From the NCBI GenBank assembly GCA_013368315.1, contig JAACJM010000097.1:245594-309593 (forward strand): a stretch of 64,000 nucleotides of DNA. The letters run 5' to 3'. Under the pieces are notes generated by a model. That model searched no databases and was not told where the DNA came from. It was given only the letters and a program-made list of their open reading frames with translations. The position numbers and the translations under genes were made by a program. Of this stretch, positions 32,673 through 53,922 are shown piece after piece (position 1 is the first letter of the stretch; every line of letters starts with the position of its first letter). Origin of the DNA: Tetrapyrgos nigripes. Lineage: Eukaryota > Basidiomycota > Agaricomycetes > Agaricales > Campanellaceae.

Positions 32673-33001
32673 CAGTGGGTCAAAAAATTGTCCACATGTT
32701 TCGCATTTTTGGAAAGATTGCCAATTTAAGCAATACTGAGTAGAGATATTGAAATGTGGTCAGTGATGGGCAGAACGCCCTTGATAAGAGCTACAATAAT
32801 CTGTTTTATTTGTCCTATTTGGCTCAAAACTCATGGAGATATGATTGATTTAAAATGGTATGTCATTTGGACAATTTTTTGAGTTGCCACTTCAAAATCA
32901 GTATTGTAACTATGTGATGTCTCATAGATGACATCATAAGTGGAGTTGTACAATGATGCAATGGCTACATCATAATGATGTCATAGCTGCCAGCTGGACC
33001 A

Positions 33002-33010
33002 TATATAAGG
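33002..33010 (+). promoter_or_regulatory. TATA box of the Tc1 transposase
   Basis: ATATATAAGG lies 34 bp upstream of the ATG chosen at 33043 and inside the longest possible open frame. The same box exists in all four copies. Its position argues for the shorter protein. Confidence 0.65.
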
Positions 33011-33042
33011 GCATCCAGTTGTTCTATAGCCCTCATCAAATC

Positions 33043-34059
33043 ATGAGACCCATCACATCCACCCAGAAAGACAATATCCTCTCTCTCCTCCAAACTTCTG
33101 CTTCATCCAGGGAAATCTCTGCTAAAACTGGGGTATCCAAGTCAAAGATTGCTTCTCTGGCCAAAGAGATGTATCCTGACAAGGAGAACCATCAAGCAGG
33201 GCGTCCTAGAAAGCTGTCTACCACTGATGAACGTGCTGCTATCCAACAAATCAACACTGGCAAAGCTGAAAATGCTACAGAAGTGGCCAGAAACATCAAT
33301 CCCCTCCTTGACCAACCTGTCTCCACCCAAACCATTCGAAATTCCCTTCTCAGGCATGATGTGGACACATCTAAAACGAAGAATAAGCCCAAACTCACTG
33401 CAGCTCACAGGAAGGCTCGTTTAAACTTTGCACAGAAGTACAGAAACTGGACTGTGGATGACTGGAAAAGGGTTATTTGGTCAGATGAGACTAAAATCAA
33501 TCGATATGGGTCAGATGGACAGCAGTATGTGTGGGGGAGGAAGGGTGAATCCTTGGGAGAGAGAAATGTGGTGGAAACAGTCAAATTTGGAGGAGGAAAT
33601 ATCATGGTGTGGGGATGTATGGGGTGGGAAGGAGTTGGAAACATGGCAGAGGTGGAGGGCAGGATGAATGCAGAGCAGTATGTGGACATTTTGGAGAACA
33701 ACCTTCTGGAGAGCATGGATATTTTGGGTGTTGATCCAGAGGTGGCCATTTTTCAGCAAGACAATGATCCTAAACACAAGTCAAAACTGGCCACCAAGTG
33801 GTTTGAAGACAACAACATCCATTGCATGAGCTGGCCTGCTCAATCTCCTGACCTGAACCCCATTGAACACCTCTGGACAACCCTCAAACACAAGCTCAAT
33901 GGATATGACACAGCACCCTCTGGAGTTTGGGAAATATGGGACAGAGCAGCTGAAAAGTGGGATGAAATCACAGAAGAAGATTGTCAGAAATTGATCAGGA
34001 GCATGCCTAGAAGGATTGAGGCTGTGTTGAAGGCCAAAGGAGGGCATACCAAGTACTGA
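33043..34059 (+). CDS. Tc1-type DD34E transposase, intact (338 aa)
   Basis: It has an N-terminal HTH (TQKDNILSLLQTSASSREIS...VSKSKIASLAKE), a second HTH-like region (STTDERAAIQQ...STQTIRNSLL), a short basic stretch, and the catalytic core with D148 (WSDET), D240 (QQDND) and E275 (PIEHLW), which are 34 residues apart as in Tc1 enzymes. It would cut at TA sites and paste the element. The frame is open from 32953, but a TATATAAGG box lies at 33002-33010 inside that extension, so the next ATG at 33043 is the likelier start and gives the usual family length. No stops or frameshifts. Confidence 0.95.
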   Translation: MRPITSTQKDNILSLLQTSASSREISAKTGVSKSKIASLAKEMYPDKENHQAGRPRKLSTTDERAAIQQINTGKAENATEVARNINPLLDQPVSTQTIRNSLLRHDVDTSKTKNKPKLTAAHRKARLNFAQKYRNWTVDDWKRVIWSDETKINRYGSDGQQYVWGRKGESLGERNVVETVKFGGGNIMVWGCMGWEGVGNMAEVEGRMNAEQYVDILENNLLESMDILGVDPEVAIFQQDNDPKHKSKLATKWFEDNNIHCMSWPAQSPDLNPIEHLWTTLKHKLNGYDTAPSGVWEIWDRAAEKWDEITEEDCQKLIRSMPRRIEAVLKAKGGHTKY

Positions 34060-34301
34060 GCTAGCACTTTCTGTATTTTCACTTGCATGTCAAAAAATTG
34101 TCCAAATGACATACCATTTTAAATCAGTCATATCTCCATGAGTTTTAAGCCAAATAAGACAAAACAGACAGAATATTGTAGCGTTTATCAAGGGCTTTCT
34201 GCCCATCACTGACCACATTTTAATATCTCTACTCAGTATTGCTTAAATTGGCAATCTTTCCAAAAATGCGAAACATGTGGACAATTTTTTGACCCACTGT
34301 A

Positions 34302-35061
34302 TACATGCTTCTATGTGGAAGGAAAGGGTTACTTTTGGTACAAAAGGATGCCGTTTGGACTTACTGGTGCACCATCAACATTTGCGCAAATGACAGCAGA
34401 ACTATTGGGTGATCTTTTGGCTGATGGGGTGCTGGAGCTATTTTTGAACGATGGGGCATCAGTGGTGGACACATTTGAAGAAATGATGGGGAAGCTCACC
34501 AAGTTGTTGAAACAGGTGAAGGAAAAGAAACTGTCACTCTCAGCATCAAAGTCTAGTTTCTTCATAAAGGAGGGTGTGTTTGCAGGTGCAAATGTTGGAC
34601 CACAAGGTGTAATCCCCGACTTGACAAAGCTGACTGCCATAGTCAACTGGCAGCTGCCAGATGATGCACTCAACCTTGAGTCCTTCCTGGGCCTCACCAG
34701 TCACTTCTGGGACCTAATCAAAGACTATGCCAAGGTGGAAAGACCATTACGAGACCTCGTCAATATTCCATTACCCAGTCCATGCTTGAAAACCACGTAC
34801 CGAATGCTGAAAGGGAAACATAAACTGGCCAACCTGTGGACAAGTCAGCATATGAAAGCCTTCATTGAATTGAAGAGGCTGCTTACCTCAAAACCTGTTT
34901 TGAAGTGCCCTAGGTTTGATGGAACTCCCTTCATCGTCACCTCAGACGGTTGCAAAGAAGGTTTCACAACTGTACTCTCCCAACGTTTCGAAATGGTCCT
35001 TCCAAATGGTTGCACTGTGAGGAAGATACACATTCATGTCAAAGTGAACCTCAAAGACTGA
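34302..35061 (+). pseudogene. pol: Gypsy-3 reverse transcriptase core, catalytic Asp changed
   Basis: The segment contains YFWYKRMPFGLTGAPSTFAQMT and the catalytic block at about 34440-34460, which reads FLNDGAS where relatives have two Asp residues (G-to-A type change), then the connection (NLESFLGLTSHFWDL) and the start of RNase H (PFIVTSDGCKEG). A stop occurs at 35061. The enzyme would be inactive even without the split. Confidence 0.85.
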
Positions 35062-36925
35062 GGAAAAGTACAAACCCTTCCTCCTCAAGTTTGCAGCATT
35101 GAAGTGTGGCCTGGATAAATTTTCCAACACAATATGGGGGTCGCCAGTGGAGATTGAGACAGACTGCCAGGTGTTGCAAGACATCATCCTAAACCCTAAC
35201 CTAAACACCATGCATGCACAGTGGTGAGATGGCATTGTTGCTCATAACATCGTCGAGGTGTGACATACCGGGGAAGATGGCGAGGCTATATCCCTACAGA
35301 ACCGATTTGCAGACGAGCCTGTCTTGTTGGAGGTCATAGTTGCACTGAAAGGCCTCACAGCAGGAATGTCAGTGAAACAACAGCAGCGTGCCAAACACTG
35401 AGCGGAGGGGTACATGATCAAGGATGCAAAGTTATGGCAGCTGAAGGGTGGCAGTAGTACAAGGGTGAGGTCATGGGTAGAGTGTGTGACAAGAGAGGAG
35501 GCTGTCAAGCTAGCAGAGATGAAACATAAGGAAGGTCATTTTGGATGAGATGCGCTGAAGACAGAGCTGTTGGATAGAATATGGAGCCCCAACCTGGACC
35601 AATCAATCCTAAACACTATCAGCAGATGTGGAAAGTGCAAAAACTTCTGTCAGACTTACTTGCATTCCCTGTTAATCCCAGTCACCCACAGACACCCTTT
35701 CGAGCTACTTGTGGGCGACTACTTAGCCATGCCTAAAGGCAAAGGGGGTTATACAACATTGGATGTATATGTGGATTCATACTCACGACATATTTGGACT
35801 TTCAAATACAAGGTGAAAGGCAGTGGGAAGACAACACTGGAGGGCCTGGGGAAGATATTCCATGGGTACATTCCCCCAGAGGTATTCCATTTTGACTGTG
35901 AAGAAGTCTGGGATTATTGTGAGTGGTATGGAGTAAAAACCAATGTGGTAGTGGCATACTCATCGTGGATCAACAGGCTTATTGAGAGTGGTATGGAGTA
36001 AAAACCAATGTGGTAGTGGCATACTCACCGTGGATCAACAGGCTTGTTGAGGGCGCTAACAAGCTACTACTTAGTGTCTTGAAGAAGCTGTGTGCACCAG
36101 AGTTAGGGGAGGACGAGTACAACAATGTCCAGGTGGAGGACTTACCAAATACGTGGCCTGACCATCTTGAGGAAGCTCTCTGGATCCTCAATAATTGCAT
36201 TCTCAGGTCCCTTCACTTCTCCCCAACAGAACTCCTCCTCGGCCTAGTGGTTAACACAAACCCCACCCCTATTGAAGAAAGCTCCGCAGCACTGGACCCC
36301 CAAGATGTCGAGCAGCAGATGGCCTATGTTGCGCAGCAACATCTGGATGGGTATGACACCACGTTGAGGCATGTGGAGAAGCAGAAGAGTGCTTTCAAGA
36401 AGCAAGTGTTGAAGAGGTTTCCCAAAGAAGTGATGTTCTGGAAAGGCCAACTGGTACAGGTGTACCATAGCGACCTCGACTACACCTTTAGGACAGAGAA
36501 GAAGCTATTACTGAGATGGTCATAACCACGTTGCATTGCAGGAAAAATAGCAAACTCTTACAAGTTGGAAACATTGGATGGAGCCTCAGTAAACAGACTT
36601 TTCAGCTCATGAAGACTGCAGGCATTTATACCAAGGGAGGGGACAAAGTTACATGAGGAACAGGTGGTGTTGGAATTGAAGATGGAGGGGAAAGGGAAGG
36701 AAAGGATTCCCATTGATGTCAACGCTGACAATGACAATGAAGCTTTGATGGCCGACACCAGGTGCAATGACACCACATCTGGAGTTACGGATCTATCAGG
36801 TTTATCGGATGTCTTCAGTGATATCAACTTTCTGGAGTTTGTAGGAGGTTCTGAGGACAGCAATGAGGACATCGCTACATTTGAGGGGGGTACATGTAGT
36901 AGTGATAGGGGGTATGCCTAGGCCT
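35062..36925 (+). pseudogene. pol: Gypsy-3 RNase H end, integrase and C-terminal tail
   Basis: RNase H fragments run to about 35400. Integrase is seen as KMKHKEGHFG-like zinc region, CGKCKNF, the first core Asp in LLVGDYLAMPKGKGGYTTLDVYVDSYSRH (about 35710-35785) and the Glu-containing block RLVEGANKLLLSVL (36040-36085), with GYDTTLRHVEKQKSAFKKQVL and a C-terminal acidic tail to TAG 36921. A 65-bp tandem duplication at 35921-36050 shifts the frame. Stops occur near 36000, 36525 and 36612. Confidence 0.8.
35921..36050. repeat. 65-bp tandem duplication in Gypsy-3 integrase
   Basis: Bases 35921-35985 are repeated at 35986-36050 with two substitutions. Because 65 is not a multiple of three, the copy breaks the integrase frame. 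It could be replication slippage or an assembly artefact. Confidence 0.9.
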
Positions 36926-37048
36926 TATTAGTCATGTGATTGCATAGTAGACAAGCCGGTTGTATGTAGTAGAGAGACTCAGAACAAGACATCACTGGGT
37001 TAGACTGTGGTTCCTCAATAGCTTCTCTGGGCCATCTCCACCGTGAGC
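36898..37048 (+). repeat. Gypsy-3 3' LTR, partial
   Basis: After the purine tract TTTGAGGGGGG, the sequence from TGTAGTAGTGATAGGG matches, in opposite orientation, 57530-57665 (GCCTAGGCCTTATTAGTCA, GACTCAGAACAAGACAT, GGGTTAGACTG). Similarity stops near 37048, so the distal part of the LTR is lost. Confidence 0.85.
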
Positions 37049-37049
37049 A

Positions 37050-38160
37050 ATGGTGTTCATCATGATTGGTATGCATGAATACATGTCATTTTGTGTACTG
37101 TGTGCTAATGAGTTCCCAGTGTTCTTGAAGTGACTGCCATGCCAATGCTTAACCCAATACTGGATGAGGGCCACCATTTCATTTGGCAGTCACATTGTTT
37201 GCAGTGAGTCGCCTATGGATTATAATGTGAGTCAATTTTTGTTTCTATTCACAGATACTGTGAAGGAGTGGTCTACCATAACCAATCTCCCTTGCTCCAA
37301 AATCCACACAGAAGGCTACTGCATGCTTCTCAGACAGAACAGGGAACCATATCTTCAATTCCAGACACTCTTCCAATACCCCTTCAATGTGCTGGAGTGT
37401 CTTTGGTACATTTTTTGGATTACTTCAAAAGGCCTGCAGCACCTTCAGAAAAGTGGATGCCACAATATAGTGAGTTTTCTTTCACTCCATGTCCTCCTCT
37501 AGCTGAGTGTGCAACGTCTGGGTCATTTTCAGCAGGATATTGTCATTTATCATGTGGTGACGCAACAGACACAAAAACATTGGGCTTGTGAATTGCCATT
37601 CACTGTTGACCTCGGTATTCCATCCTCTCTGACCAAACATGCTTGTGGTTGTAGGAAAACCATGACTAGACACAACAGGGTCCCGCACCACCATGTCCAT
37701 GGTCTTGTACGCATCTTTCCACTTGTTCTGCAACCTGACCATCTTGCTAACCATCTGCCATAAACCCAGAACCCATGGAGGTAGTAGCACCTTCCCATTG
37801 TGATAATGCAGGTCGGTAATTGCCTTTGCCCCATCCATCCATTTCTGACTGTAGTCGTCAGCCAACTCTTGCAAGGTATCATCTGAAGGAATGGGATAGC
37901 AATAGATATGGTCAAGAGTTTCAGTTGTGGTTGCTGTAGGGGTGGAGTGACTGAACCATGCATCTGTAGCAAAGGTGCTCAGCGAGAAGGACTGTATCGG
38001 GAGTTTAATGTCAAGGAATTGTAGGATGGAGATCTCTTCAGAAGGAAACTTGTTTCTAAGTTCTGGCAGTGGTTTTGGTGTAGCTAGACATGCATTAACG
38101 ATGTTTAGTGGTGGTTGGATGTATCCCTTCCCAACTCCAATCCATTATTCTGCTTGAAAC
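37050..38160 (-). pseudogene. Second Ulp1-like (C48) protease gene, transposon-associated
   Basis: On the minus strand an N-terminal region (CLATPKPLPELRNKFPSEEI; LQELADDYSQKWMDGAKAI; LLPPWVLGLWQMVSKMVRL) leads to a Ulp1 core: KHAVAFCVDFGAREIGYG (His), then after an intron (about 37205-37255, gtagac...catag) DSLQ (Asp), a stop, LIQYWVKHWHGSHF, STQNDMYSC (Gln and Cys). Deubiquitinase-like SUMO proteases of this type are common passengers in fungal transposons. It ends against the Gypsy-3 LTR. It is not close in sequence to the hAT-linked Ulp1 at 28411. Two stops are visible. Confidence 0.7.
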
Positions 38161-39180
38161 AGCATCTGCCTCTCCTCTTCTATGTCAGGCTCTGGGTCAT
38201 TGTTTTTTGGACAGTGTTGCCCTGGGGAGGTCATTTTGTGGTACAGTTGCAGGTGACAAAGAGCAGATAAGGGACAAAAAGGAGTGGAAATATTTTCTTT
38301 AACTGCTCTCTCAGACCCCATCATCGCTAGCAGCATTTAGACTATGTACATGAGGCTATATGTTTAGGCTGCTGGAGGTATACTTTATCTGTGCTGCACC
38401 CTCCTCAGTCCTCCTTGTGGCAGCTGTGACCTGCTCCAAAGGCCTCCAAAAACCTTCCTGGCTAGGCAATTTTATGTGAACTGGTGTCTGGCTTTGCCTG
38501 TGGCAGGCAGTATTATGTGAACCTGGAACCAGAGGTTCCCTCAAAATTTGCTCCAGTTTTATGTGAACCGGGACCATACATATAAGGGTATTATCAGGGG
38601 GCCTGGCTTACCTCAACTCCACTCATGACAAGTATGTGTTGCATATTTGCAACTTCTTGTGGAATAAGTAGCCAAGACGAAGTGGAAAAGTCTTGACACT
38701 TTACAGCTGTAGGTAATTAGCCAAAAAGAAGCTCAAAACACCCTATTTTAGGTGCAGTCAGAAAAAATTTTCCTGAGGTTGTACCTCCCCTCCCCCTCTA
38801 CCCAATGTACTGAATATTCAGCCCACCTCCCCCTTGATCAGAAGAGTCATTGTTGAGGGAGGTTAAGGCTTGTAATGTGTTTGAAGCAACTCTCAGTCAG
38901 GAAGCTGGAGTCCACCAGTAGACTCATCCCTCAATAGCTGCCAGAACTCGACTTGAAACAGATCACAGATCATTTCCCTGTTGAGGCTTCGGGACTGAAA
39001 GACATAGACTTCACAAATTGTTGAACAACTGAGCTGTCTTAGGGGTGTATCTAGTTGTGGAGAGGAGAAAAGTAGCTCCTTAACAGGTGGAGGCTGAGCA
39101 AAGTTGCTAACAATGGATAAATGAAAACCTAGACAATGTGGTTGCAGGTCAAGAAGCAAAGTGAAGATGCATCAGACTGT
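38161..39180. other. Region without a recognisable gene
   Basis: There are short imperfect repeats of TTTTATGTGAACYGG at 38470, 38510 and 38558 (three copies). The open frames are short and show no conserved motif. It may belong to the mobile element that carried the Ulp1-like gene. Confidence 0.4.
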
Positions 39181-39188
39181 GATGCGTC

Positions 39189-39741
39189 TAGGGCTCAGTA
39201 CCGTACCCATATACGGGTACGACCGTATTTTTCATGGCTAAGCTGTACCCGTACCGTATTGTCTGCACAAGAACTCCCTGACAGTACGGGTATGGGCTGT
39301 ATACTGTAAATACGGTCAAAAAATGTTTGCTGCATTGGGGGTGTGGAGAAATGCGCTGAAACACCCAAAACACGTTAGTACCTACACTTTGCATCAACGA
39401 AACCGTGAATCTCTCCCCTTGGCTTCCATTCTGGCAGATAATCCGGTCCAAGGACGGCAAGGACAGCAGGAAATCTGTCAAAATAAACGGCATACCCTTC
39501 CCACAGTACCTCAGGAGCAATTAGATGATGTGCCAGGAAATTTTGGGAAAAGGCAGCCTTGGGTCAACCTCGGGTGCCACCAATTTTGGTAGCTGTCACA
39601 CACATGTGATCAATGACACCTGCCATAAAAGGCTATTATGTCACTTACCCGTACTACCCGTATACAATACGGCCTGATACGGGTCATACTGTACCGTCTT
39701 GGCTAGAGTAGCATATGGTACGGGTATGGTACCAAGCCCTA
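39189..39741. mobile_element. Non-autonomous hAT-like MITE (553 bp)
   Basis: The termini TAGGGCTCAGTACCGTACCC and GGGTATGGTACCAAGCCCTA are imperfect inverted repeats, and the flanking 8-mers GATGCGTC (39181-39188) and GATGTGTC (39742-39749) differ by one transition. Both fit hAT. Inside, the motif TACGGGTA and its complement recur many times near both ends, which could be subterminal transposase binding sites. There is no transposase gene. Confidence 0.8.
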
Positions 39742-39749
39742 GATGTGTC

Positions 39750-40230
39750 TCCAGGCATTGAGATTTTCAAACTCAAAATTCTATTGTTTTCTTCCTGGAA
39801 AAAGGCTACAGGACTGTATTAGATACAAAAATATACACTTTTGGAGGTTTCTAGGGGGATTGAGGAAGAACTGAACGAGCTGCTCGCCATCTACGACAAC
39901 GGGCAAAATCCCCACCATTTTGTGAATCACCAAACAAACCCAAACACAGATGCACAGGAACTCGAATAGCTCGCGCCGCAGGCTCCGCTCGCAAAGATAG
40001 CGACGTCCTCATCGCTCGACCCCCAGGCCTCTACCGCCACCAGACCCACCAGCTCCTCACTCTCTCTCAGACCCTCGGTGACCTCCCCAAGCGCCTCACA
40101 TGATACCAACCGTCTAACCGCTCTCCCTCCAACGACGGATTCCAGCTGGTACGAATTGGCATCCCTCACAACAACCCTTCTTGGTCCCGTCCACTGTGGC
40201 CACGTGACAATATGTATGACCCAAGGCTAG
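39750..40230. other. Spacer downstream of the Pro-rich gene, with an open plus-strand segment
   Basis: On the plus strand, after a possible acceptor (tttctag at about 39852), a frame reads GIEEELNELLAIYDNGQNPHHF and, past a stop at about 39967, a Ser/Thr/Pro-rich stretch to about 40200. It could be a remnant of a host gene. I do not recognise it. Confidence 0.35.
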
Positions 40231-43200
40231 CTAGCCCCTACTAAACTTCGACATGATGTTAGCAAGCTGCATCACCCGCAAAAGCACCGTCAGGACCAGG
40301 GCCGTGTTTTCCGTTAACGTATCCCCAGGGGAACAAGACTGGTAAACGATGTTGGTAGTATTATAAGTGTAACGCATATTGTAGGGTTGGAATTCGGGCG
40401 GAGGTTCTGACTCCTTTTGGCTGAGCAACGTAACGGTCCCGAAACTCCCTACTGCGACGCCTGCAAAGCTTGCTGCACCCACAACCGCGTAACCCTTCCA
40501 GTCACCTAAATAAAAGTAAGAATAAGCAAAACCCTTGAAAAGGACATGAAGATTACGAATACTGACCGTTATTATACTCATTATACTGGCTCCCTGCTAT
40601 TCCGTTAAAGGTAGAACCTTGTACTTCGAAGTTGTGCGCGCTATTCAACATCTCAATCTGGTGCTCTGGGCTTGCTTGGGCTACAGAGAGTATGTCGCCG
40701 GTATCGCCGGGCGCCTCCTCGTACGCGCCCCCTGGAAGAAGAGTAAACACCACCTCCGTGCATGCGTCGTCCAATGTAACACCTTCGGAAGAGATTCTCG
40801 GCTTATCATCACCACCGGGAGAGAACTTCCCGTTAGCTGATGCACCGTTATGTGCACTCCCTCCTTGGGTACGTGAAGCGTCGTTTGTATCTCCTTGAGC
40901 CGCCGAAGTTGTGTCCCCAAACAACATATCCAGGTCCTCAAGTAGTTCAGGATGAGTGTTCAACCATGGTGATGATTCCGGTAACTCTGAAGGTAGTGGA
41001 GGGATAAATATGGGTGCGTTGGGTGTCATGAGATGTACTCCAGATGGAATGAGCCACTGGCTCATATACCCTTCACCTGCGGAGTTCGGTGAAGGGAACT
41101 CCTCATCATACAGTAGAGGTGGTACGAAGAAGGGAGACAATGAACGCTTTTGATTGTACGGTGGAACGACACCATTTGGTACTGGATCACGAAGCTCTTG
41201 ATTCCATGATGGGAGTGGTGATGAGGCATGCGAATGTGGAAGAGGGGGAGGAGGGGCGGAAATGGGTGAGTTATAATACGGAACGACGCCATTTGTTAAT
41301 GCTTCAGAAGTTCCCTCTCCGCGAATAATAGGCGTGTTAGACGAATAGGATAGTTCGTTCGGTGAAGGGTACTCCTCATCATCCAGTAGAGGTGGTACGA
41401 AGAAGGGAGACAGTGAAAGCTTTTGATTGTACGGTGGAACGACACCATTTGGTATTGGATCACGAAGCTCTTGATTGCATGATGGGAGTAGTGATGAGGC
41501 ATGCGAATGTGGAAGAGGGGGAGGAGGGGTGGAAATGGGTGAGTTATAATATGGAACGACGCCATTTGTTAATGCTTCAGAAGTTCCCTCTCCGCGAATA
41601 ATAGGTGTGTTAGGCGAATAGGATAGTTCACCTGTAACGCCGCACTGTACTTTGGCCAACGAAGGCGGCTGTGCTGCTGGTGGAGTGTACTGGGTCTTAG
41701 CCCACGTCGGTGAGACGCTCGGAGGACTACTTGGTAGTCCACGAAGTGGTAATTCTTTATGTATGTAACTGTCGCTTTCGCAAGTATTAGGTGGAAGCAT
41801 GCTAGGGTCTGAAGTTGAGAAAATTGACTGTGATTGAGAGCTTCCAGGAACGTGAACTTGTTCTGCAACTGGCATCGACCACGGATTTAAGGTCGACGGC
41901 TGAGAGAAACTGGAAGCATGCATTGGGGGTAGTGACGGATTCGGATATGAGGGAATAAAGGATCCTTGGTTAATAAAGGGACCATAGGGCACACGAGCAC
42001 GCATGAACGAGGGTATACCACCGACTTCCCAAGTATAAGGCGTGGAAGTCGCAGGTGCCAATGGGTTCCATTGAGAGGGAAAGAAAGCATCTTGTATTGG
42101 ACCACCAAGCATATTCGCAAGTACACCACCCATTCCCCAAGTATAGGGTAAGAAAGTGGTCGGGGCATATGCCGGAAAAGAGGATGGCTGGGCACCCAAA
42201 AATGGGTAATGCTGCGGGTGGTGGGTACCTGATGTTGCATTCAGAGTAAACTGGGCGTATGCGTCCTGTTGTGGAAGAAAGGGATTTGGATACGGATGAA
42301 TAAAAGGATTATGCATGTTGTTAGGATCAACCTGGGGTGGGCAAGTCGACGGAGTAGACCTCGCAATGCGCTGTGGATGATATTGACTCTGGGGCCATTG
42401 TGACGAGTGGTTGATATATTCCGGAAAATGGGACGGCTGGGCAACGGAAACAGGGTAATGTTGCGTGTGGTAAACACCAGACGTTGTGTTGAAGAAGCCT
42501 GGGCCTGTGCCCTGTTGTGGAAAAAAGTGATTCGGATATGGATAGATGAAAGGATTATGTAGTACGTGGGTAGGACCACTCTTGGGTACGCAGGTCGGCG
42601 CAGACCTTACAATCCGCTGTGGATTAAATCGACTCTGGGGCCATAGTGCCGGGTTGGTGTGTGGAAGGCCAAGGGCGACGTTGCTAGCTCCTCCTTTCAT
42701 CTGTCCCAAAGGTTCTCTGAAAGACCTCGGTTCTTGGATTGGACTCGATAGGAAGTCGGGTAGCGACGTCAAATGTGGTGGAGTCACGAAATGGCCAGTT
42801 ACGAATTGCTGGTCATTTTGGCATGAAGGCCTACTCACAATTCCAGGATGACAGTCTGGGACACTTCTGTGTGTAACAGTCCCTCCGTCCGTACTCATAC
42901 TCTCGCAATTCGGTTCCTTTGTGGACGAAGCGAGACCCACTCTGTCAGCATCATACGGGGCGCCAGTGGCAGGAACGCGGAGTACGGTAGCAGCTATCCA
43001 GCGATCAGGATCCACTGTGTTTGGCCAAGATGGTCAAAGTTGAGGACTCACCATCTTCTTCGAAATCTCTGCCCAAGATACCGGGTCCGTACCCCCACCC
43101 CCAGTCAGTACACTGGTTCTCCCTTCCATCCTTTCCGAAGAGCGTTGACCCTGTAATATCAACAGAAGAGTCTGGCAGAGACACCAACACTTGCTCTGTG

Positions 43201-43253
43201 GAACGGTGAGCCCAGTATCCATAAGACCTAGCTCGAATTAACTTACCAGCCAT
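40231..43253 (-). CDS. Pro/Ser-rich protein with C-terminal membrane segment (about 957 aa, 4 exons)
   Basis: The exons are 43247-43253, 43052-43195, 40567-43014 and 40231-40505. The introns (51, 37 and 61 nt) all have GT-AG ends (gtaagt/cacag, gtgagt/cacag, gtcagt/tttag) and keep phase. The protein starts MAEQVLVSLPDSSVD and has a Gly/Trp-rich N terminus and a long Pro/Tyr/His/Ser-rich middle with two sets of internal repeats. After an acidic stretch comes a hydrophobic segment GYAVVGAASFAGVAVGSFGTV near the C terminus, then EPPPEFQPYNM. It has no known domain. The single membrane segment suggests a membrane-anchored low-complexity protein. It is the only intact protein-coding host-like gene inside the inverted segment. 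Confidence 0.7.
41089..41634 (-). repeat. Tandem 273-bp (91-aa) duplication in the Pro-rich gene
   Basis: Bases 41089-41361 and 41362-41634 are almost identical (both code for LSYS.NTPIIRGEGTSEALT and NGVVPPYNQK). The unit is 91 codons, so the frame is kept. A second, more diverged repeat of about 80 residues lies at about 42200-42640 (NPFIYPYPN and NPFIHPYPN units). Confidence 0.9.
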
Positions 43254-43668
43254 CTCAGAGAAGAGAGAAGACAAGAGGGAGACTCAAAAAGACACGAGGT
43301 CTTCCAAGATTAGCACAAAACGCTATCCCGCCACGGGCCGTCGACACACCCACGTGACCTTTTCCGTCACGTTAAGGTCCACTGCCACAGGATATAATAA
43401 TATAAGTCCGGACACATATGTCGTCATATACCGTGATATCCGCGTGACCGGTCTGGAGCCAAAAAGAACCGATCAGACTCGATCTTCTCCCAAAACGCAC
43501 AATATACCGTTATATGCCTGTCATTTACTACGCAAAGTAAGTGTTGATAGCCTACTGGTTAAGCGTGTCAAGCTGGAGCAAAGGATGTGGGATCCTGTGC
43601 TTGTGCTTTTTTATTACACCTCGAGGCGAGGCGCTAGCCATATGTCCATACTTATATATCCCGGCACA
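43254..43668. other. Upstream region of the Pro-rich gene
   Basis: This 415-bp stretch between the start of the Pro-rich gene and the palindrome has no supported gene. TATAATAATATAAG at 43394-43407 and TATATAC-like stretches are present but on unclear strands. Confidence 0.35.
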
Positions 43669-44385
43669 CACAGCGGGGCGCGGAGCATATTTGCCAGCCA
43701 TTTTTGTGCACTCTTAAATGACGGATAGTTCACACGATTTTGGGTGAGATAAATTTGATTGTATTAGCTGCCAAAAAAGGGGTCGCAAAAGCTCAAATTA
43801 TGCGCTCAAGTTTTTCCATGCTAAACTTTTTACTCATTCATGACCAAAAAAGGGAAACAAATAGTATTCGAATTTTGATTTGTGAGAAAATGCGAAAAAG
43901 GTATGATCACTATTTGTGTGCCGGACTCCGGCGAGTAAAAGGAAAAGCACTGCGGATGGGAAAATCTAAACTTAAATGACGGATTTTTACTCAGCACCGG
44001 ACCTACTCCATATGGCACCGATTTGAGGCCGATATTCCATATGGAGTATGCCCGGCTGTTGAGAAAAATCGGTAATTTAAGTTCGTGTTTTTCAATGCCC
44101 CAGTGAATTCATTTTACTCACCGGAATCCGGCACACAAATACTGATCATGCCTTTTGCGCATTTTCTTACAAATCAAAACTCGAATACTATTTACTTCCT
44201 CTTTTTGGTCACGAATGAATAAAAAGTTTAGCACGGAAAAGCTCAAGTGCATAATTTGAGCTTTTGCGACCCGGTTTTTTTAGCAGTAAATACGATGGAT
44301 TTTGTCTCACCCAAAATCATGTGAACTATCCGTCATTTAAGAATGCACAAAAATGGCTGGCAAATATGCTCCGCGCCCCGCTGTG
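43669..44385. repeat. 717-bp foldback palindrome
   Basis: Arms of about 347 bp (43669-44015 and 44037-44385) are inverted copies with few mismatches, separated by a 21-bp loop. The outer ends are CACAGCGGGGCGCGGAGC and its complement. The right arm is directly followed by another CAGCGGGGCGCGGA and then the MULE terminal repeat. It has no gene. It may be a foldback element derived from MULE ends. Confidence 0.88.
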
Positions 44386-44399
44386 ACAGCGGGGCGCGG

Positions 44400-44543
44400 A
44401 CTAAATGCAATTCGCTCACCACTTTTCGATCCGACGCAAGCTGTTGTCAACTAAGTACAAATAATGACATAAGCGATGTCGCGTCGGATTTTTGCAAGTC
44501 CTTTCGCGGCCTTCACTCTAGGTATCTACATATGTATGTAGCC
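44400..44543 (+). repeat. MULE terminal inverted repeat, left
   Basis: The sequence ACTAAATGCAATTCGCTCAC through to TATGTAGCC is inverted at 51962-52094. It contains an internal inverted pair (ATCCGACGC and GCGTCGGAT) that could form a stem. Confidence 0.88.
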
Positions 44544-44684
44544 AGTCGTTTGGCTAGGTCTTTGAACTGAGAGTATCTAGGTATAGGATTTCTCATATTA
44601 TATATTAAGTACTCTGAGATTGACAAAACTGCAAGAAAAAGCTTAAGGAACAACCATTTCCACGTCAACGTGAATTCTTTTTAG

Positions 44685-45455
44685 GCCCCCATAGTGTTCT
44701 TCGAGATTCGGGCTTGTGTCTTGTTAGTGGGCCAAGTAGGTAGACATTTTCTGCCGCTCTCCGTCTTCAAACGCATGTCCTGTACAAAATTAACAAGGTC
44801 ATGACCCAATCTGCGTCCGTTGTTTCTGCCGAGAAGATTGTTGAGCCAAACGAGGTCTGCCATATCTGCGTTCTCTTCTAAATACTGAGCTGCGTCCATT
44901 AATTTCTGACTTAGGTCGTGGACGCGCTGGCGCTTTTTCGCGATCTGGACAAATCACGGAGAACGCGTATGTCATAAGTATCATATGACATCTCGGCAAT
45001 GTTGATTGTTCTCACCTCTTCCACAGTTTTCTCATCCACCTCAACGTCTGGTATTCCGGTTGGTTGTGCATTGTTGTTCCCATTGTTGCTCCCATCCACG
45101 TCGCTGCTCGTTTCCTCTAGATTCCGCTTACGAGACGACCGCACAAGATGCATTGTGCTTGATTTACCAATAACTGACCGCCACTTGCCATCAACGAGCT
45201 TTTCGTCATCACTCAGGAAGAGATGGTCGTCTCCGTCTGTTATGCTTCCTGGATCGTCTTCTTCATTTGTCATTTGCATCACTGGAGCAGTTATAGAGGA
45301 CGGAATTCGGAGAATGGGGTGTCGGTAGATGGGAATACAACGACGACGAATGACCTCTAGGAAAAATGTTGTGGGTGGCCTAGCAACTGCTTGGACCAGG
45401 TGTTTGCATAAGCAGTGAGTATCGTATTTCTGCTGGCCGCAGTTGCATAGCCATT
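44685..45455 (-). pseudogene. MULE transposase, SWIM zinc finger (second half) and C-terminal tail
   Basis: The SWIM finger reads WLCNCGQQKYDTHCLCKHLVQAV (C-x-C...C-x-H) at about 45385-45452. It is followed by DPGSITDGDDHLFLSDDEK, a basic Ser/Arg stretch, an acidic Asn-rich linker and a helical C terminus (QKLMDAAQYLEENADMADLVWL) to about 44685. The preceding residues of the finger region (TDISK) are at 48340, across the inserted element. Confidence 0.8.
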
Positions 45456-48336
45456 AGGTAGGGTCAGAGTGCCCGTTTTTGACCCGTTTCAAAGAAGTGC
45501 ATCAGGGAAAGCCTCAAAGGCACTTTTATGCAAATGTAGCCTAATTATGCAATTTCGGAATGAAAATGCATAATTTTGTAAGATCCATCTCACATATTGT
45601 ATAATGTCTGTAATGCATTGCATAACTATGCACACAACGCACCTTCATGCACTCTGTTGAATGATATATGCTCACTGTTGTATGAAGGAGTCATGGATGA
45701 GTTCATAGGAGGAGGGTCAAAATCTACTTCATCTGTGCTTTTTGGATATATTCAGCAAGTGGACACTGGACAGAATGTAAGATATATAGTTACAACAGAA
45801 CTGCCTAAGAGGAGAGAACCTGTACACAAATTCAAGAGGTAGCAACATTGACTTGATGCATCGACTCACTGGAGAAGGAACTTAACCAAAATACCAAAGA
45901 AGATTGTCAGGCGGCAACTTCCCAAACAATTGAAACTCTGCTGAAGAACTATACAGCTGCTCCCATAAGCACGTCAACAAATGGTCACCTGACCATGTTG
46001 ACTTATTCTTTTCACTCCCAAGTCCAAAGCCAAGTGTTGCAATTCCCCTCAGCCTGTCCATTCTTCCTGGTAACGAGACTTACTCTGCTACTCTTACTCT
46101 TATAGTAGCTCAAGTGCTGCAACACTGGTCCATTCGGAACCTATTCCTTCCACCCCTCATGCAGGTGAGTCTCGACCTTCTGCCTCTTCTTTCTATACTG
46201 ATATTTTGTCAAAACAGGCTCTGATAGCTTCCTGTTTTTAGGACCACCTTGATGTACAGGGAAGAGCAAGGATGACTGGAGAGCTATGGGTTGGTCTTTG
46301 GTTGACTTTGGCTCAGGCCTGTTGTATGTACCAGGTATGTTTCTTCTACTCTTTTGTTGATCCCTGCCGAGCACTGAGCAGTACTTTCTCTTGCTCATCA
46401 GGTATTCAGGATGTGTGCAGGGGTCATATATGTATAGGTACGTCTGTTATCCTTTTGTTTTTGGCGTGGGTTGACCCTTATTATGCCTTAGGTTTCATTG
46501 TATCGGTATACACAGGAGGTATGTATGCGACATCTCCCATTGTTCCTTACGCTGATCGCTGTCGTTCTAGGTATCCAGGCCGTGTTGTGTCAATATAGTT
46601 GTAGTGTAATTTTCAGCTGCACAACGTCTTCTGTTGTTCCTTACGCTGATTGCTGTCATTTGCGATGGTATCCAGGCCATTTTGTGTCGACATAGTTGTA
46701 GTGTAGTTCTCGGGTGTCTCTTGTAGTGTAGCTATTCTGTATGCACACTTCATGATTGTAATATGTAGTCCTTGTCAATATACATCCTTTGATCCATTCG
46801 TATTGATTTTATTGTGTTGAATGTAACAAAGAAGTGGATATTTGACAGTGAAAACTGTGAGCTAAGAAGTATAACCTATGCATTCTGTCGCATAAAATAG
46901 TAAAATTTGTGCATAACTTATGGATCTCATCGGGGGACTTGCATGAGGTGCATAATTTGCATAATTACACCATTTTATGCATTACCACGCAATTTTCAGT
47001 ATCTCTTATGCATTTATTGCATGAAAGTGCCTTGGAGGCTTTTCCTGATGTGTTGCAACTGACTGCAACAACATCTTGAAACAGCTTCGACCCTCCACCT
47101 GCAATGAAAGCCTGTTGCAGCTTCCACTTTCTTACTAAATCAGACTTATGTACAACTTATGTATCCAAATAAAATTTTAAATTTTTTTGTCTTTATCGTG
47201 GATATACACGTGTGTCCACTACTGCAGGTGTACTCTCTCTTCATCGATGAATCCCTCACATCCCTCTGGCATGGCGAAGAGAAAGGCGGAGCACAGCAAC
47301 CAAAATACTCGGAGTTGTAGTCTTCGTTATCCATTTCAGAACATGTAGATAAAGTCTCAGACAAGGGGGTGGCAGAATAGAAATTCCATACATCCCCTCC
47401 AAAAAAAATTTAGCAAGACCCTCTGACCCCCCCCTCCCCTCTCTCCTTCCATATATGGTAAATCTGAAGTCACATGTTACCTGATAAGATATAGATAAAG
47501 TCACATGTATTGATAATTACTAATCAGATTGTCTGCAATGAGGAGGGAGGACCTCAGATATCCTCAAACCCAATTCAAATGAAATGATTGATACATTTGT
47601 TATTCTGAAATAGCTGGAAACACTTCAAAACTTCTGAAAAACTTGGTATCATGTCACCCTCAGCTTTGGGAACCTACTTAGACGCCCACCTGGAGAGGGT
47701 CCAAAAAAAATTTAGCTGGACCTTGGACCCCCCCCCTCCCCCCCAGGTGATGTGCCGGATATCCATTCCGCCACCCCCTTGGTCTTGGTCTCGGAGTCCA
47801 TAGAGGCATCCAAGGTAGAGTCAGAAAAACTTGATGAGTCTGAGCTGGAAGAGGATGAAGAGGGGTCTTCTCCTTTGTTTTTGAATGTGTATGAACTGTC
47901 AAGTTGCAGTTGGAAATCAAGAGGGAGGGCTGGAGATGGCATTTGGACAGTAGGTTGTGTTAAACCTTCTTGTTGGAGTCGTCGTTTCAAAACATTTTCA
48001 CAGCATCAGGATTGGCTTACTTGGGCCTTGTGGAATTGAAGGAATGTATTTATTAGTTTCTGAGCATGACTGTGACGGGTAGCAGGCGCAGGCATGACAG
48101 ACAGTAGTGTAGGGACCCGGTAGAGTTGTGACGAAAAGACATACAACATAATCCAGACTTTTTTAAGAATATTACTTTTCTAGGCGGTGAGCAACAAAGA
48201 GGAACAAAGGCCTGCAACGCCTTAGAAGAAAGGGCAGTCAGACTAACAGGCCGTTTCATGACCATTTTGTGAGGTTGCAACAGCACCTGAAACAGGTGTG
48301 TGAAATGTGTCAAAAACGGGCACTCTGACCCTACCT
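45456..48336. mobile_element. Unclassified 2881-bp element in the MULE SWIM domain, 3-bp TSD
   Basis: The termini AGGTAGGGTCAGAGTGCCCG are exact inverted copies for 28 bp. The flanking ATT at 45453-45455 and 48337-48339 is a 3-bp duplication. Removing the element with one ATT restores the MULE codons (ISK then WLCNC). The interior has no transposase I can recognise. It holds a nested inverted-repeat element (45500-47050), a tandem repeat near 46530-46710 and C-rich modules near 47400-47790. A 3-bp duplication is compatible with PIF/Harbinger or CACTA, but the termini fit neither clearly. Confidence 0.82.
45500..47050. mobile_element. Nested inverted-repeat element inside the 2.9-kb element
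   Basis: The 34-bp ends at 45500-45533 and 47017-47050 are inverted copies with about four mismatches (CATCAGG, AAGCCTC, AAGGCACTT blocks). Subterminal DNA on both sides is rich in ATGCATAA and TTATGCA. No transposase is recognised; one 85-aa minus-strand frame and membrane-like plus-strand frames at 46272-46700 are not conserved in any way I can see. Confidence 0.6.
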
Positions 48337-48339
48337 ATT

Positions 48340-51300
48340 TGCTGATGTCAGTGATGTAGGTTTGGTCGCTTAACGGGGTCAAGGCATGCTTTGACCAAGC
48401 AGTCTTGAAATATGACTGGTATGTTGTAAGCTTCTTTGACCGACCCATTCAATGGTCATCTTCAAGCTCGTTCGCTTTAGCCATCCAGGCAGGGACAACC
48501 TTGGTGCAGAGAATCTATACCAACTGATCAAGACGAGGGCGTATCAGGTAATGTAGCCAGTGGTGCTTCAACTGTTTCCAAAAATTCTCAACACACATAG
48601 TTGTCCACAGGCATGAGATGTATTTTGTGGAAGACCGTGCCCACAGCAGCCACTTTGATGGGCTGTACCACAACATCCACATATATCCCCACACCTCTGT
48701 CAAACCATGTGCCTTGCAGAACTGATACATTTCTGCCACAGCATGCTCCCAAATGCTCTTTGCTCCATAAGTGCCACTTTGCTCAGGGAATGATGGATGT
48801 TGACAGAAATGTTTGGTGAAGATATGGAGGAGCTGCCATCGATGTGGAGCTGGGCAAAATACATAGTTCGGGTCCTTTGACTTGACTTCGTTTTCTTCCA
48901 GCAGCCAGTCTGGACCATCCTCCTGGTCAACCTCAATCTCCTTATCTTGCGCAATACGTGACTGCAAGTCATCACCAGTCATGTCATCTCCCAGCTCAGG
49001 CTCATCTCCAAGTTGATGAGGGAGGGTGGAATCTGTCATGGAAGACTGTGTGGGGATATTGAGAGGAACCGGTTCAGGAGTTGAGTCAGGCTCTGAGGCA
49101 GGGTCAATGACTGGTGAGATTCTATTGCTCAGGGCTGGAATTTTGATGATGAGCTTCGGTATGACTGGAACGGGGACAGGCTGGACAACGCTGTTGAGCT
49201 GAACTGTAATGCGAGGGATGCATGTCTGTGCGACATAGTCTGGTTGAGAATTCTAGAATCATACAAGGTGAGAAACGCTATATCAATATTAAATGTTTTC
49301 ATACTCACCTGTACTCCAATGTGTTGACCTCTAGGAACAAAGTCCTTATCTATCCATGGGAACTCTGACTGTGCCTGGTCTACGTTATATGGTGTGGGGG
49401 CACAATGTAGGATGGAAAGGTGAGTCTTCACTGCATGCTCAGCATGCCAATAACAAAGCTGATGTTTGGCTTCAGGGAACTCCTGTTGTAATGCGTTTAT
49501 CTCTGATGTGTCCTTGTCAGACAAGGTGATGATTGGTGTAAGACCACCATTTCTCCTTGCATGCTTGAGGAATGCTCATAGAAACTTTGCTTTAGTTCCT
49601 TGTATTGCACCAGCCTCGACACAGAGTAGAAGAAATCCAAGAGGCTGTCCAGATCTGTAAGTCTTGCCAAGCAAGGCATACAGCTCAAAACGTCCAGTGT
49701 TCATTTCCCCTGCAACATTGGTGAGTTTACTTTAGTGATTTATGGTAATAATATGAGTGCGCACACACATGCTGAGTCCAGAGCAATCTCGCATATTCTT
49801 CCGGCCCATTGCTTAAGCATATCTGGAATGATGAAGGCAATGGCTGTCACACCTGGTTGCTCTGGCAGCAGCACTTGCTCAATGGTGTAATTACCCAGTT
49901 TACTGTCAGCGCATTCCTCCAAAACCTTCTTGGCTGAGCCCACCTCATCATCCATTCTTCTGTACTGACTGCTGTACTTCTCATGCCAGATACTGTAGAC
50001 TGCTTTCTGTGTGAACATAGGTTTGGGGTAGAGGCGCAAAACCTCAGCCCATAACTAAATTGTAGAGTAAGTCATTGTCCATATCTCTGTGGAAGGGTCT
50101 TACCTGACCAACTGTTTTCTCTGTGTTAGCAGCTTTGTCTATCATTTTTCTGATGTCCCCAGGAACTGAGACACAGCAATAGGGAACATGGTTGATACTG
50201 TGTGCAATTCTCACTAGAGCCTCCTCACAATGATCATCCAACGTAATGTGGACCCAGCCTTCACAATCAAAACTCTTCATCGAGAATTTGTCTCGTTGTT
50301 TTTCCGTGTCTTCTACTTTCTTGGGTTTTCACTGGCAGTCACATAACTGTGCACAGTAGTAATCATGACAGTCACTTTGTTTGTCCTTGTGTGTATGTAC
50401 CCTATGATGCCTGCCAAAAGGAGCTCTTAGCTTAAGTCAAACTGATTGTTATGGGGTATGCACACAAATTGGTATCCAGTAGCATTTGCAACACTCCCAG
50501 CAATAACATCTGCTCTTCTCCTTCTAAGCCAACTCTAAGACCCACGATATTCATGTGTACCTCCAATGAAATGGGGCCGCTTTGCCAAGTAGCCAGTAGC
50601 ATTGAAAAGTCATCCATGCTCACAAGCTCCAAAGGGCTATCAGTGCGAAGCTTGCGTGGTTTGGGGGCATCTACAAGGACCTTGTCTTTCTTCTTTCTGT
50701 TCTCTTTGTTGCCTTGTTTGTTTGCCTTTTTTTTCTCCATGCATTCCATGCATTGTGTGGTACGCTCCTTGTCATGTTTTTTGCCTTTTATCCAAGGGGT
50801 GTGCAGGACCTTATTGCCACATATCACCTTGATTTGCAGTCATAAGCCCTTGGATGGCCCCCCCTCCCCCCCTCCCTACTAAAAAGGGAAATTTCCCATG
50901 CTATTTTACTCACATGAAAGCACAGGACTGCGTGTTGATGACATGTCACTTCTCTTCCTACAACCGCCAACTTCTAGCTTTGCAATATGCTGGAGGGCAT
51001 GGGGAAGAATCAGAGCCATGGTCTGGGTCCAGGGAATCAACGTGTGGTATTGGAAGACGTGAAGGGCCGGGAACAGATGTGATGGTTTTTTTGGGTAAAG
51101 CCTTTGAGAAGAATGAAGTGATAGTCTTCCAAACAGGTACATCATTAGACTTGTGGCTTTTACTTTGAAGGTGGTAGCCCCAATTCATTTCACCTCTAAA
51201 TCCAATTCAAATCCTATCTTGATGTCCACTTTGCATATCTCGCAGTAGCGGGTGCTTTCTGCTGTAAAATTGGACTAAAGGGAGAAATTAAGTATGCAAT

Positions 51301-51960
51301 ATCCAGAAAGGAATTATAAGCATGCACAGAGGGAGCCCCTTTCTTTCCCTTTCCCATGTATACAATTTTGTGTGTCCAAAATGAATGGGGATGTGAAAAA
51401 AAAATTTTAGTTCACATGCAAGCCATGTGGAGCTGTGGTCAGCTGGCCTTTGACCTTCTTGATTTGGTGTATTGGCTGGCTCCCACATGCCCTAGGCGCA
51501 TCTATGTTGTAAGAAGGTTGAATTGAGCATTTCTGAGCTATGGCAAGTTCTACAGACCATTTCTGGGGTACTAGGACTAACTTTGGCATTCTCAGTCATA
51601 AGGACCTCTTGACCCCCCCCTCCCCCCCAAGGTGATATACGGCAATTACATTTTGAACACCCCTTGCTTTTATCTTGAGAGGAAAGTGAGTAGGAGGAAA
51701 CTTGTTCTTGCACCTTCCACATTTGGACTTGCCATCAGCATCAGTAAAGCATTCGGGACATTCACAGCTCAGGGCCATTTGGACAGGATAGCTGAACTTC
51801 AAATAGAAAATTCTTTTGATGCGTTGGCATCGGGACCACATGATGGCATTCTCTGTGTAAAATTAATTGCCTGTGTCAGGATGCGAAATGTCAGAAATGA
51901 CATATTGTATCAGAATTCGACAGCCTGAATTGGCTGACTTGTAGTTGTAGAAGTGTACAT
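48340..51960 (-). pseudogene. MULE transposase, N-terminal and catalytic part
   Basis: Read downward on the minus strand: a Cys-rich N terminus (CECPECFTDADGKSKCGRCKNKF, about 51715-51785), a Lys-rich block (50640-50790) and PLELVSMDDFSMLLATWQSG. A FAR1/MULE-like DNA-binding segment follows (SFDCEGWVHITLDDHCEEA, 50220-50275), then helices with PMFTQKAVYSIWHEKYSSQYRRMDDE. The MULE catalytic domain has ITLSDKDTSEINALQQEFPEAKHQLCYWHAEHAV (about 49425-49535), and a His/Trp-rich C-terminal part (VCVENFWKQLKHHWLHYLIRPRLDQLVY) runs to 48340. Short introns are likely (for example near 49690-49735 and 49255-49310). Several stops are present. MULE transposases cut and paste elements with long terminal repeats. 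Confidence 0.75.
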
Positions 51961-51961
51961 A

Positions 51962-52094
51962 AGGCTACATAGATGGAGTGAAGGCTGCGAAAGGACTTGC
52001 AAAAATCTGACATGACATTGCTTATGTCATTCTTTGTACTTAGTTGACAACAGCTTGCGTTGGATCGAAAAGTGGTGAGTGAATTGCATTTAGT
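51962..52094 (-). repeat. MULE terminal inverted repeat, right
   Basis: This is the inverted counterpart of 44400-44543. At several places where the left copy has CG this copy has CA or TG, which indicates methylated-cytosine decay here. Confidence 0.88.
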
Positions 52095-52097
52095 GGG

Positions 52098-52105
52098 GCG
52101 CAGAC
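52098..52105. other. hAT target-site duplication, right copy (inverted by rearrangement)
   Basis: GCGCAGAC here is the reverse complement of GTCTGCGC at 28149-28156. The two should be direct repeats for an undisturbed hAT; they are inverted because the segment between the Tc1 copies flipped. Confidence 0.93.
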
Positions 52106-52291
52106 TAGGGTTGCGGGAAAAACTCCCCTCAAGTTTTTGCCCAGTTCAGAATAGGGGAGGTGGCCAGGGGGGATTGTTCCAAACCGTTCAGAACTTCATG
52201 TATCAAAAAAACGTGATTTTTCAGAAAATTTTCGCTGGCAATTGCTTGCTCACCCAAAGACCTGCCAACTGCGCTAGACTACGTATTAGTA
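52106..52291 (-). mobile_element. hAT transposon, right end
   Basis: It begins with the terminus TAGGGTTGCGGGAAAAA (reading inward on the plus strand) and ends at the TA of Tc1 copy C. It has no coding region and represents the last 186 bp of the hAT whose main part is at 28157-32672. Confidence 0.9.
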
Positions 52292-52293
52292 TA

Positions 52294-53920
52294 CAGTGGG
52301 TCAAAAAATTGTCCACATGTTTCGCATTTTTGGAAAGATTGCCAATTTAAGCAATACTGAGTAGAGATATTAAAATGTGGTCAGTGATGGGCAGAAAGCC
52401 CTTGATAAACGCTACAATATTCTGTCTGTTTTGTCTTATTTGGCTTAAAACTCATGGAGATATGACTGATTTAAAATGGTATGTCATTTGGACAATTTTT
52501 TGACATGCAAGTGAAAATACAGAAAGTGCTAGCTCAGTACTTGGTATGCCCTCCTTTGGCCTTCAACACAGCCTCAATCCTTCTAGGCATGCTCCTGATC
52601 AATTTCTGACAATCTTCTTCTGTGATTTCATCCCACTTTTCAGCTGCTCTGTCCCATATTTCCCAAACTCCAGAGGGTGCTGTGTCATATCCATTGAGCT
52701 TGTGTTTGAGGGTTGTCCAGAGGTGTTCAATGGGGTTCAGGTCAGGAGATTGAGCAGGCCAGCTCATGCAATGGATGTTGTTGTCTTCAAACCACTTGGT
52801 GGCCAGTTTTGACTTGTGTTTAGGATCATTGTCTTGCTGAAAAATGGCCACCTCTGGATCAACACCCAAAATATCCATGCTCTCCAGAAGGTTGTTCTCC
52901 AAAATGTCCACATACTGCTCTGCATTCATCCTGCCCTCCACCTCTGCCATGTTTCCAACTCCTTCCCACCCCATACATCCCCACACCATGATATTTCCTC
53001 CTCCAAATTTGACTGTTTCCACCACATTTCTCTCTCCCAAGGATTCACCCTTCCTCCCCCACACATACTGCTGTCCATCTGACCCATATCGATTGATTTT
53101 AGTCTCATCTGACCAAATAACCCTTTTCCAGTCATCCACAGTCCAGTTTCTGTACTTCTGTGCAAAGTTTAAACGAGCCTTCCTGTGAGCTGCAGTGAGT
53201 TTGGGCTTCTTCTTCGTTTTAGATGTGTCCACATCATGCCTGAGAAGGGAATTTCGAATGGTTTGGGTGGAGACAGGTTGGTCAAGGAGGGGATTGATGT
53301 TTCTGGCCACTTCTGTAGCATTTTCAGCTTTGCCAGTGTTGATTTGTTGGATAGCAGCACGTTCATCAGTGGTAGACAGCTTTCTAGGACGCCCTGCTTG
53401 ATGGTTCTCCTTGTCAGGATACATCTCTTTGGCCAGAGAAGCAATCTTTGACTTGGATACCCCAGTTTTAGCAGAGATTTCCCTGGATGAAGCAGAAGTT
53501 TGGAGGAGAGAGAGGATATTGTCTTTCTGGGTGGATGTGATGGGTCTCATGATTTGATGAGGGCTATAGAACAACTGGATGCCCTTATATATGGTCCAGC
53601 TGGCAGCTATGACATCATTATGATGTAGCCATTGCATCATTGTACAACTCCACTTATGATGTCATCTATGAGACATCACATAGTTACAATACTGATTTTG
53701 AAGTGGCAACTCAAAAAATTGTCCAAATGACATACCATTTTAAATCAATCATATCTCCATGAGTTTTGAGCCAAATAGGACAAATAAAACAGATTATTGT
53801 AGCTCTTATCAAGGGCGTTCTGCCCATCACTGACCACATTTCAATATCTCTACTCAGTATTGCTTAAATTGGCAATCTTTCCAAAAATGCGAAACATGTG
53901 GACAATTTTTTGACCCACTG
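52294..53920 (-). mobile_element. Tc1/mariner element copy C (1627 bp), intact, at inversion breakpoint
   Basis: Same length and 210-bp inverted repeats as copy B, opposite orientation, TA at 52292-52293 and 53921-53922. The left flank is the hAT end and the right flank is Gypsy-3 RT, the mirror image of copy B. Confidence 0.97.
52534..53550 (-). CDS. Tc1-type DD34E transposase, intact (338 aa)
   Basis: The frame is complete, with the same two HTH regions and DD34E residues as copy B. The one amino-acid difference I see is in the linker before the catalytic core, KTKKKPK here and KTKNKPK in copy B. The start at 53550 is chosen as in copy B because a TATATAAGG box lies just upstream inside the longer frame. 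With copy B it makes two potential sources of active transposase. Confidence 0.95.
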   Translation of the reverse strand: MRPITSTQKDNILSLLQTSASSREISAKTGVSKSKIASLAKEMYPDKENHQAGRPRKLSTTDERAAIQQINTGKAENATEVARNINPLLDQPVSTQTIRNSLLRHDVDTSKTKKKPKLTAAHRKARLNFAQKYRNWTVDDWKRVIWSDETKINRYGSDGQQYVWGRKGESLGERNVVETVKFGGGNIMVWGCMGWEGVGNMAEVEGRMNAEQYVDILENNLLESMDILGVDPEVAIFQQDNDPKHKSKLATKWFEDNNIHCMSWPAQSPDLNPIEHLWTTLKHKLNGYDTAPSGVWEIWDRAAEKWDEITEEDCQKLIRSMPRRIEAVLKAKGGHTKY

Positions 53921-53922
53921 TA

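Follow-up and report, generated by a model that had tools for sequence, protein, structure and literature searches.

The window analyzed here is a 64,000-nucleotide stretch of the genome of the agaric Tetrapyrgos nigripes, corresponding to the final 64 kb (positions 245594-309593) of contig JAACJM010000097.1, hereafter C94, in an assembly of 98.46 Mb in 587 contigs. It contains an inversion of about 18 kb with a Tc1-like DNA transposon at each end, the two copies (B and C) lying in opposite orientation. The sequences interrupted at these points belong to two older transposable elements, a hAT-like DNA transposon and a decayed Gypsy element, and a second contig of the same assembly, C254 (114.5 kb), carries the region in the unflipped order. 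The main features of the locus, including open reading frames (ORFs) and long terminal repeat (LTR)-like ends, are as follows (window coordinates):

32673-34299, plus strand: Tc1-like copy B, 1627 bp, with a 368-amino acid transposase ORF at 32953-34059
52294-53920, minus strand: Tc1-like copy C, 1627 bp, with a 368-amino acid transposase ORF at 52534-53640
34300-52293: inverted segment, 17,994 bp, of which 35968-52293 is collinear with C254 in the direction opposite to both flanks
28149-28156, plus strand: left 8-bp target duplication, GTCTGCGC, the same in C254
28157-32672, plus strand: left part of the hAT-like DNA transposon, from its terminal bases and its contiguity in C254
52106-52291, minus strand: right part of this transposon, inverted as assembled, from its terminal bases and the C254 alignment
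52098-52105, minus strand: right 8-bp target duplication, whose reverse complement is GTCTGCGC; one base differs in C254
53921-57665, minus strand: 5' part of the Gypsy element, with an LTR-like end at 57523-57665
34302-37038, plus strand: 3' part of the Gypsy element, with the rest of the reverse transcriptase (RT), RNase H, a weak integrase and an LTR-like end at 36895-37038

Copies B and C show a single mismatch over 1627 bp, at element position 712. TA borders both ends of B and both ends of C, and the ends of the copies are inverted repeats of ~210 bp that are 95% alike. The transposase of B harbors DDE_3 and HTH_Tnp_Tc3_2 domains, and a structure search placed it as a relative of Sleeping Beauty (E = 2.1e-58). 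A protein search with the transposase returned many Tc1-like proteins (the best 81% identical among the matches listed), and a comparison with plasmids gave distant matches only, the three listed being IS630. With its TA target, terminal inverted repeats and DDE transposase, the element is a Tc1/mariner transposon. A first-pass annotation of this DNA had described two intact, oppositely oriented Tc1 copies at these positions; its coordinates are exact and both 368-amino acid ORFs are open. It had also reported that the flanks of each copy are mismatched, and we found the flanks of B and C to be exchanged precisely at their TA sites, the swap being exact on all sides.

The first of the two elements cut by the breakpoints is the DNA transposon. 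Both of its ends begin with the same 17 bases (TAGGGTTGCGGGAAAAA), and the 8-bp target duplication is found at both ends, in opposite orientation as assembled. Since wrongly oriented ends share one 8-bp duplication, they derive from a single insertion that was split by the inversion. As to its class, an 8-bp target duplication and terminal inverted repeats were found, as in hAT elements, although other superfamilies can share these features. None of the seven ORF pieces of the element matched a transposase profile; a protein search with one piece found no homologue, and a search with another found one agaric homologue, a protein of Tetrapyrgos nigripes annotated as hypothetical (54%). The annotated whole hAT (28157-32672 plus 52106-52291) is confirmed as one restored element; the name hAT fits the ends and the target duplication but is unproven. 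Positions 29085-29582 of this transposon gave a Ulp1-protease match under the cut-off (E = 0.0012), a hint that the element may belong to a different superfamily that also makes 8-bp duplications of its target.

The second element is the Gypsy element. Within its 3' part, 34315-35058 (plus strand) matches RVT_1 profile positions 111-199 followed by an RNase H domain (RT_RNaseH_2), and 35549-35998 gives an integrase match under the cut-off. We take the sequence from 53921 upward, on the reverse strand, to encode the first half of the RT, an assignment made by eye from a sequence motif; the piece scanned there gave no Pfam match. The LTR-like pair of 144 bp (36895-37038 against the reverse complement of 57523-57665) is ~88% identical; its members are inverted as assembled and become direct repeats once the segment is flipped. 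The features of a Gypsy LTR element found here are thus the LTR-like pair and the order RT, RNase H, integrase, with the integrase under the cut-off and the outer LTR limits undefined; inspection by eye found no target duplication.

Other members of the Gypsy family provide a direct view of the Tc1 site in this element. The 400-base flanks 53921-54320 (minus strand) and 34300-34699 (plus strand) were searched separately across the genome, and 33 matches from the first search, with C94 and C254 left out, were compared with 40 from the second (40 of its 49 candidates were scored). In 24 of these 33 places elsewhere in the genome the two halves overlap by exactly 2 bp, the TA; 18 of these were read directly and six by ungapped extension of matches ending at most 30 bases short. 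Three of the remaining matches pair inexactly (two on C399, one on C61) and six have no partner among the second-search matches listed. The annotation had proposed a whole element of the order LTR-gag-PR-RT-IN-LTR. Its two halves indeed rejoin on the TA, with a direct LTR-like pair and with RT and RNase H domains; the gag and protease (PR) portions are not borne out, as none of six pieces of the 5' part (53921-57665) gave a Pfam match.

A single flip of the segment thus mends two elements at once, as the annotation had claimed, and C254 displays the unflipped order. Given C254 and the 8-bp duplication, we set aside a chance resemblance of the flanks. An inversion made by other means and followed by Tc1 insertions was also rejected, since two Tc1 copies would then have had to land precisely at its breakpoints.

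C254 aligns to 51,721 of the 64,000 window bases in 13 blocks, with ~1.6% substitutions overall (~98.4% identity; 1.0-2.5% per block, with many insertions and deletions (indels)), the two smallest blocks diverging less (0.26% and 0.91%). The alignment runs in one direction outside the inversion and in reverse for 35968-52293. At C254 positions 63987/63988, window 24011-32672 is joined to the reverse of 44707-52293 with one TA and no Tc1, and the DNA transposon is whole, without a Tc1 copy at the exact site; its ends have no exact-letter match in C254 and are present by alignment with single-base changes. At C254 positions 45363-45365, window 54070 is joined to 35968, as in an unflipped Gypsy element. 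Here C254 has a deletion of ~1.8 kb over the Tc1 site, the ends of which share CAACA, and 34300-35967 has no counterpart in it; we therefore did not accept C254 as evidence for a Gypsy site without Tc1. No young Tc1 copy is present in C254, which carries only relatives 69-80% alike near its end. Because the two cut older elements become whole on flipping and C254 has that order, the window order is derived and the unflipped order without Tc1 is ancestral.

C254 most likely represents the second nuclear haplotype, with the two contigs overlapping at their ends. Positions 30001-37000 of C254, beyond the end of C94, have no near copy (best 86% over ~1.9 kb), and on the opposite side the alignment stops near C94 position 242,755. 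The terminal 4.5 kb of C254 consist of multicopy repeat sequence, which does not separate a haplotig from a duplicated segment. RNA-polymerase control genes gave three loci, each single and not doubled, from which the assembly is probably mostly not doubled.

Neither loss nor gain of sequence was detected at the junctions, where completeness of the transposon site was judged against C254 and that of the Gypsy site against family members alone. This bears on how the inversion arose. As a possible alternative, the annotation had named transposition with ends drawn from both copies. In the two-site version of this idea, reversed ends of two separate Tc1 copies would act together, as in the alternative transposition described for Ac/Ds and for P elements; impala of Fusarium is another non-standard case (PMC8225341). 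When the copies lie at separate sites, such events should remove or double some sequence (PMC2775673), whereas here the transposon junction is complete relative to C254 and the Gypsy halves meet on the TA in family members. We regard this form as highly improbable; of the earlier suggestion, what survives is a form in which hybrid ends come from the same site, considered below.

A crossover between inverted copies, by comparison, is predicted to exchange the flanks and to lose nothing. Here, oppositely oriented homologous copies lie precisely at the two breakpoints, and each has one flank from each of the two insertion sites. We consider it probable that the inversion was made by non-allelic homologous recombination (NAHR), that is, a homologous crossover between two inverted, near-identical Tc1 copies. 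The proposal that ectopic recombination is the simplest mechanism is thereby supported, by the clean junctions and by a four-gamete pattern among the Tc1 copies. The further features on which this pattern draws are:

32980 in B and 53613 in C: element position 308, G in both and A in the other 19 aligned copies
33384 in B and 53209 in C: element position 712, T in B and G in C
~9261-10887, minus strand: Tc1-like copy A, in the window
~60217-61844, minus strand: Tc1-like copy D, in the window
C94 238714-240340, minus strand: a fifth young Tc1 copy, just outside the window

The alignment comprised 21 copies, 17 from the genome and the four in the window, and allele counts across the genome were taken as exact 25-mer matches. 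The G308 25-mer has five matches, in B, in C and in three relatives whose aligned pieces are 72-83% identical, against 160 matches for A308; that the two young G308 copies are the two breakpoint copies has a chance of ~1 in 13,000 (162 copies, computed after the fact). Within the alignment, T712 is found in B, A and the copy at C94 238714 only; its 25-mer has three matches, all on C94 and B among them, against 144 for G712, and the chance that three T712 copies fall among the five on C94 is ~2 in 100,000 (147 copies, also computed after the fact). All four combinations at positions 308 and 712 are present: AG, AT, GT (B) and GG (C). If each change arose once, four gametes at these positions imply sequence exchange between copies.

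The scenario that fits with the fewest events starts from copies AG and GT. The DNA transposon would have received a Tc1 copy bearing the widespread alleles (A308, G712), and the Gypsy element one belonging to the local lineage (G308, T712). The flanks would then have been swapped by a crossover inside the first 712 bp of the Tc1 element, accompanied by a short conversion tract over position 308.

The same alleles bear on hybrid-element transposition, in which transposase joins one end from each sister-chromatid copy of a replicated Tc1 insertion and inserts them into a TA 18 kb away on the attached arm, so that the inversion and the second copy arise together. As we work this model through, it predicts two full-length copies facing opposite ways, each bordered by TA at both ends, and nothing lost; it also explains the private G308 common to B and C, and both copies have an open transposase ORF. 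Its outcome has been called "strikingly similar" to that of ectopic recombination (Delprat et al., 2009; PMC2775673). It predicts identical copies, however, and B and C differ at position 712, where B agrees with its two neighbours and C carries the allele found genome-wide, so that a later conversion or back change is needed. The pattern at 308 and 712, read from the aligned copies, moderately favours recombination, and we consider the hybrid route unlikely. Were it true, the hybrid jump into the Gypsy element would make the rearrangement of the chromosome a direct result of a burst of transposition limited to one haplotype.

Several points weigh against an NAHR origin. We found no unflipped chromosome that carries both insertions; the sole other version found, C254, has no insertion in the transposon, and its Gypsy site is deleted, so emptiness there cannot be shown. 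The informative Tc1 sites are two only, and a plain reciprocal crossover of AG and GT does not yield GT and GG, which is why a conversion tract is assumed. Were B and C both copies of one element, their private G308 would be just as expected, and position 712 would need an extra event. Short-read polishing inside repeats could fake the 308/712 pattern, and C254 could be a duplicated segment, given that the three RNA-polymerase loci are not doubled. Moreover, three contigs (C19, C165 and C200) start inside a Tc1 copy, showing that the assembler broke there at times.

This last point also speaks for an assembly error, in which both Tc1 copies are present, the segment is really unflipped and wrong exits were taken at the two 1.6-kb repeats. 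B and C are nearly identical members of a family of ~160, they lie within 32 kb of the contig end, and the three contig starts are among 100 Tc1 places listed (contig ends not judged). The other 97 places are not cut by a contig start, and no N was found in the window or in 268,085 assembly bases examined (some overlapping). In addition, copy D differs from the family by five indels, all of them length changes in short homopolymers. Such changes are a trait of long reads, making it probable that reads exceeded 1.6 kb and would span each copy. We hold an assembly error to be quite improbable; the inversion is probably real and recent, and likely specific to one haplotype.

The transposon impala of Fusarium is, like B and C, a Tc1-mariner element. 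It offers a parallel as a fungal transposon of the same broad kind tied to rearrangement, and the rearrangements in question were attributed to non-standard transposition (Hua-Van et al., 2002, as cited in PMC8225341). The same source describes Ac/fAc inversions of maize p1/p2, which also have transposons at their breakpoints; there, however, a newly duplicated target site forms one of the breakpoints and the inter-element fragment is lost, and neither is seen here. The closest likeness is to inversion 2z3 of Drosophila buzzatii, made by Galileo (Delprat et al., 2009; PMC2775673). Both cases have opposite DNA-transposon copies at the two breakpoints, exchanged flanks and a single target in the uninverted chromosome, and the chimeric alleles of the Galileo copies have a possible parallel in B and C. 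Galileo, however, is a P-superfamily element, and its chimerism was read from 53 sites (PMC2775673); in our Tc1-like case TA duplications cannot distinguish the sites, two sites are informative and a conversion tract is assumed.

Transposon-mediated inversion is thus a known process, of which this locus is a new and very clean case with unusually clear traces. A literature search, mostly of titles and abstract openings, recognised no Tc1-bounded inversion with both arrangements in a basidiomycete, though we do not claim that there is none. Such inversions must often be deduced from breakpoints that are old and altered. In the present case a single assembly contains both arrangements, the breakpoints are clean, two independent older elements fix the polarity, and the Tc1 copies are so young that exchange can be followed through single-base variants, making this a testable fungal case for separating recombination from hybrid transposition. 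Should C254 be the other haplotype, the locus would also illustrate how structural differences between nuclear haplotypes can follow from a local burst of a single transposon.

The neighbourhood is rich in young Tc1 copies, with five in ~69 kb of C94 (238714-307437) against ~162 in 98 Mb. The T712 allele common to three C94 copies suggests local hopping within one haplotype, and the sites of copies A (from abutting alignments) and D (from the printed sequence) are empty in C254. The homopolymer indels of D may be read errors near the contig end and not decay. Elsewhere, matched sites at C150 75509-77132 point to a pair of young, oppositely oriented Tc1 copies with less than 200 bp between them, from which a hairpin or a further inversion might form.

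No host gene was seen to be cut by the breakpoints, the sequences cut being the two pre-existing transposable elements. The annotation had listed as cargo of the inversion a Pro-rich gene, a Mutator-like element (MULE) and a miniature inverted-repeat transposable element (MITE), and their counterparts all lie inside it:

40553-43015, minus strand: Pro/Ser-rich ORF of 820 amino acids, open in C254 too
~43668-44386: MITE-like multicopy inverted-repeat element, 0.7 kb
49132-49575, minus strand: MULE transposase domain

A weakly lectin-like ORF (fungal-lectin match under the cut-off) is also found within the inversion. A protein scan of the window gave one DUF6699 match, and an Rfam scan gave none. 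Finally, the region 39718-43465, which surrounds the Pro/Ser-rich ORF and contains a 273-bp tandem duplication, differs from C254 by 27 substitutions in 3748 bases (0.7%, against ~1.6% overall), for which constraint and gene conversion between the contigs are candidate causes.

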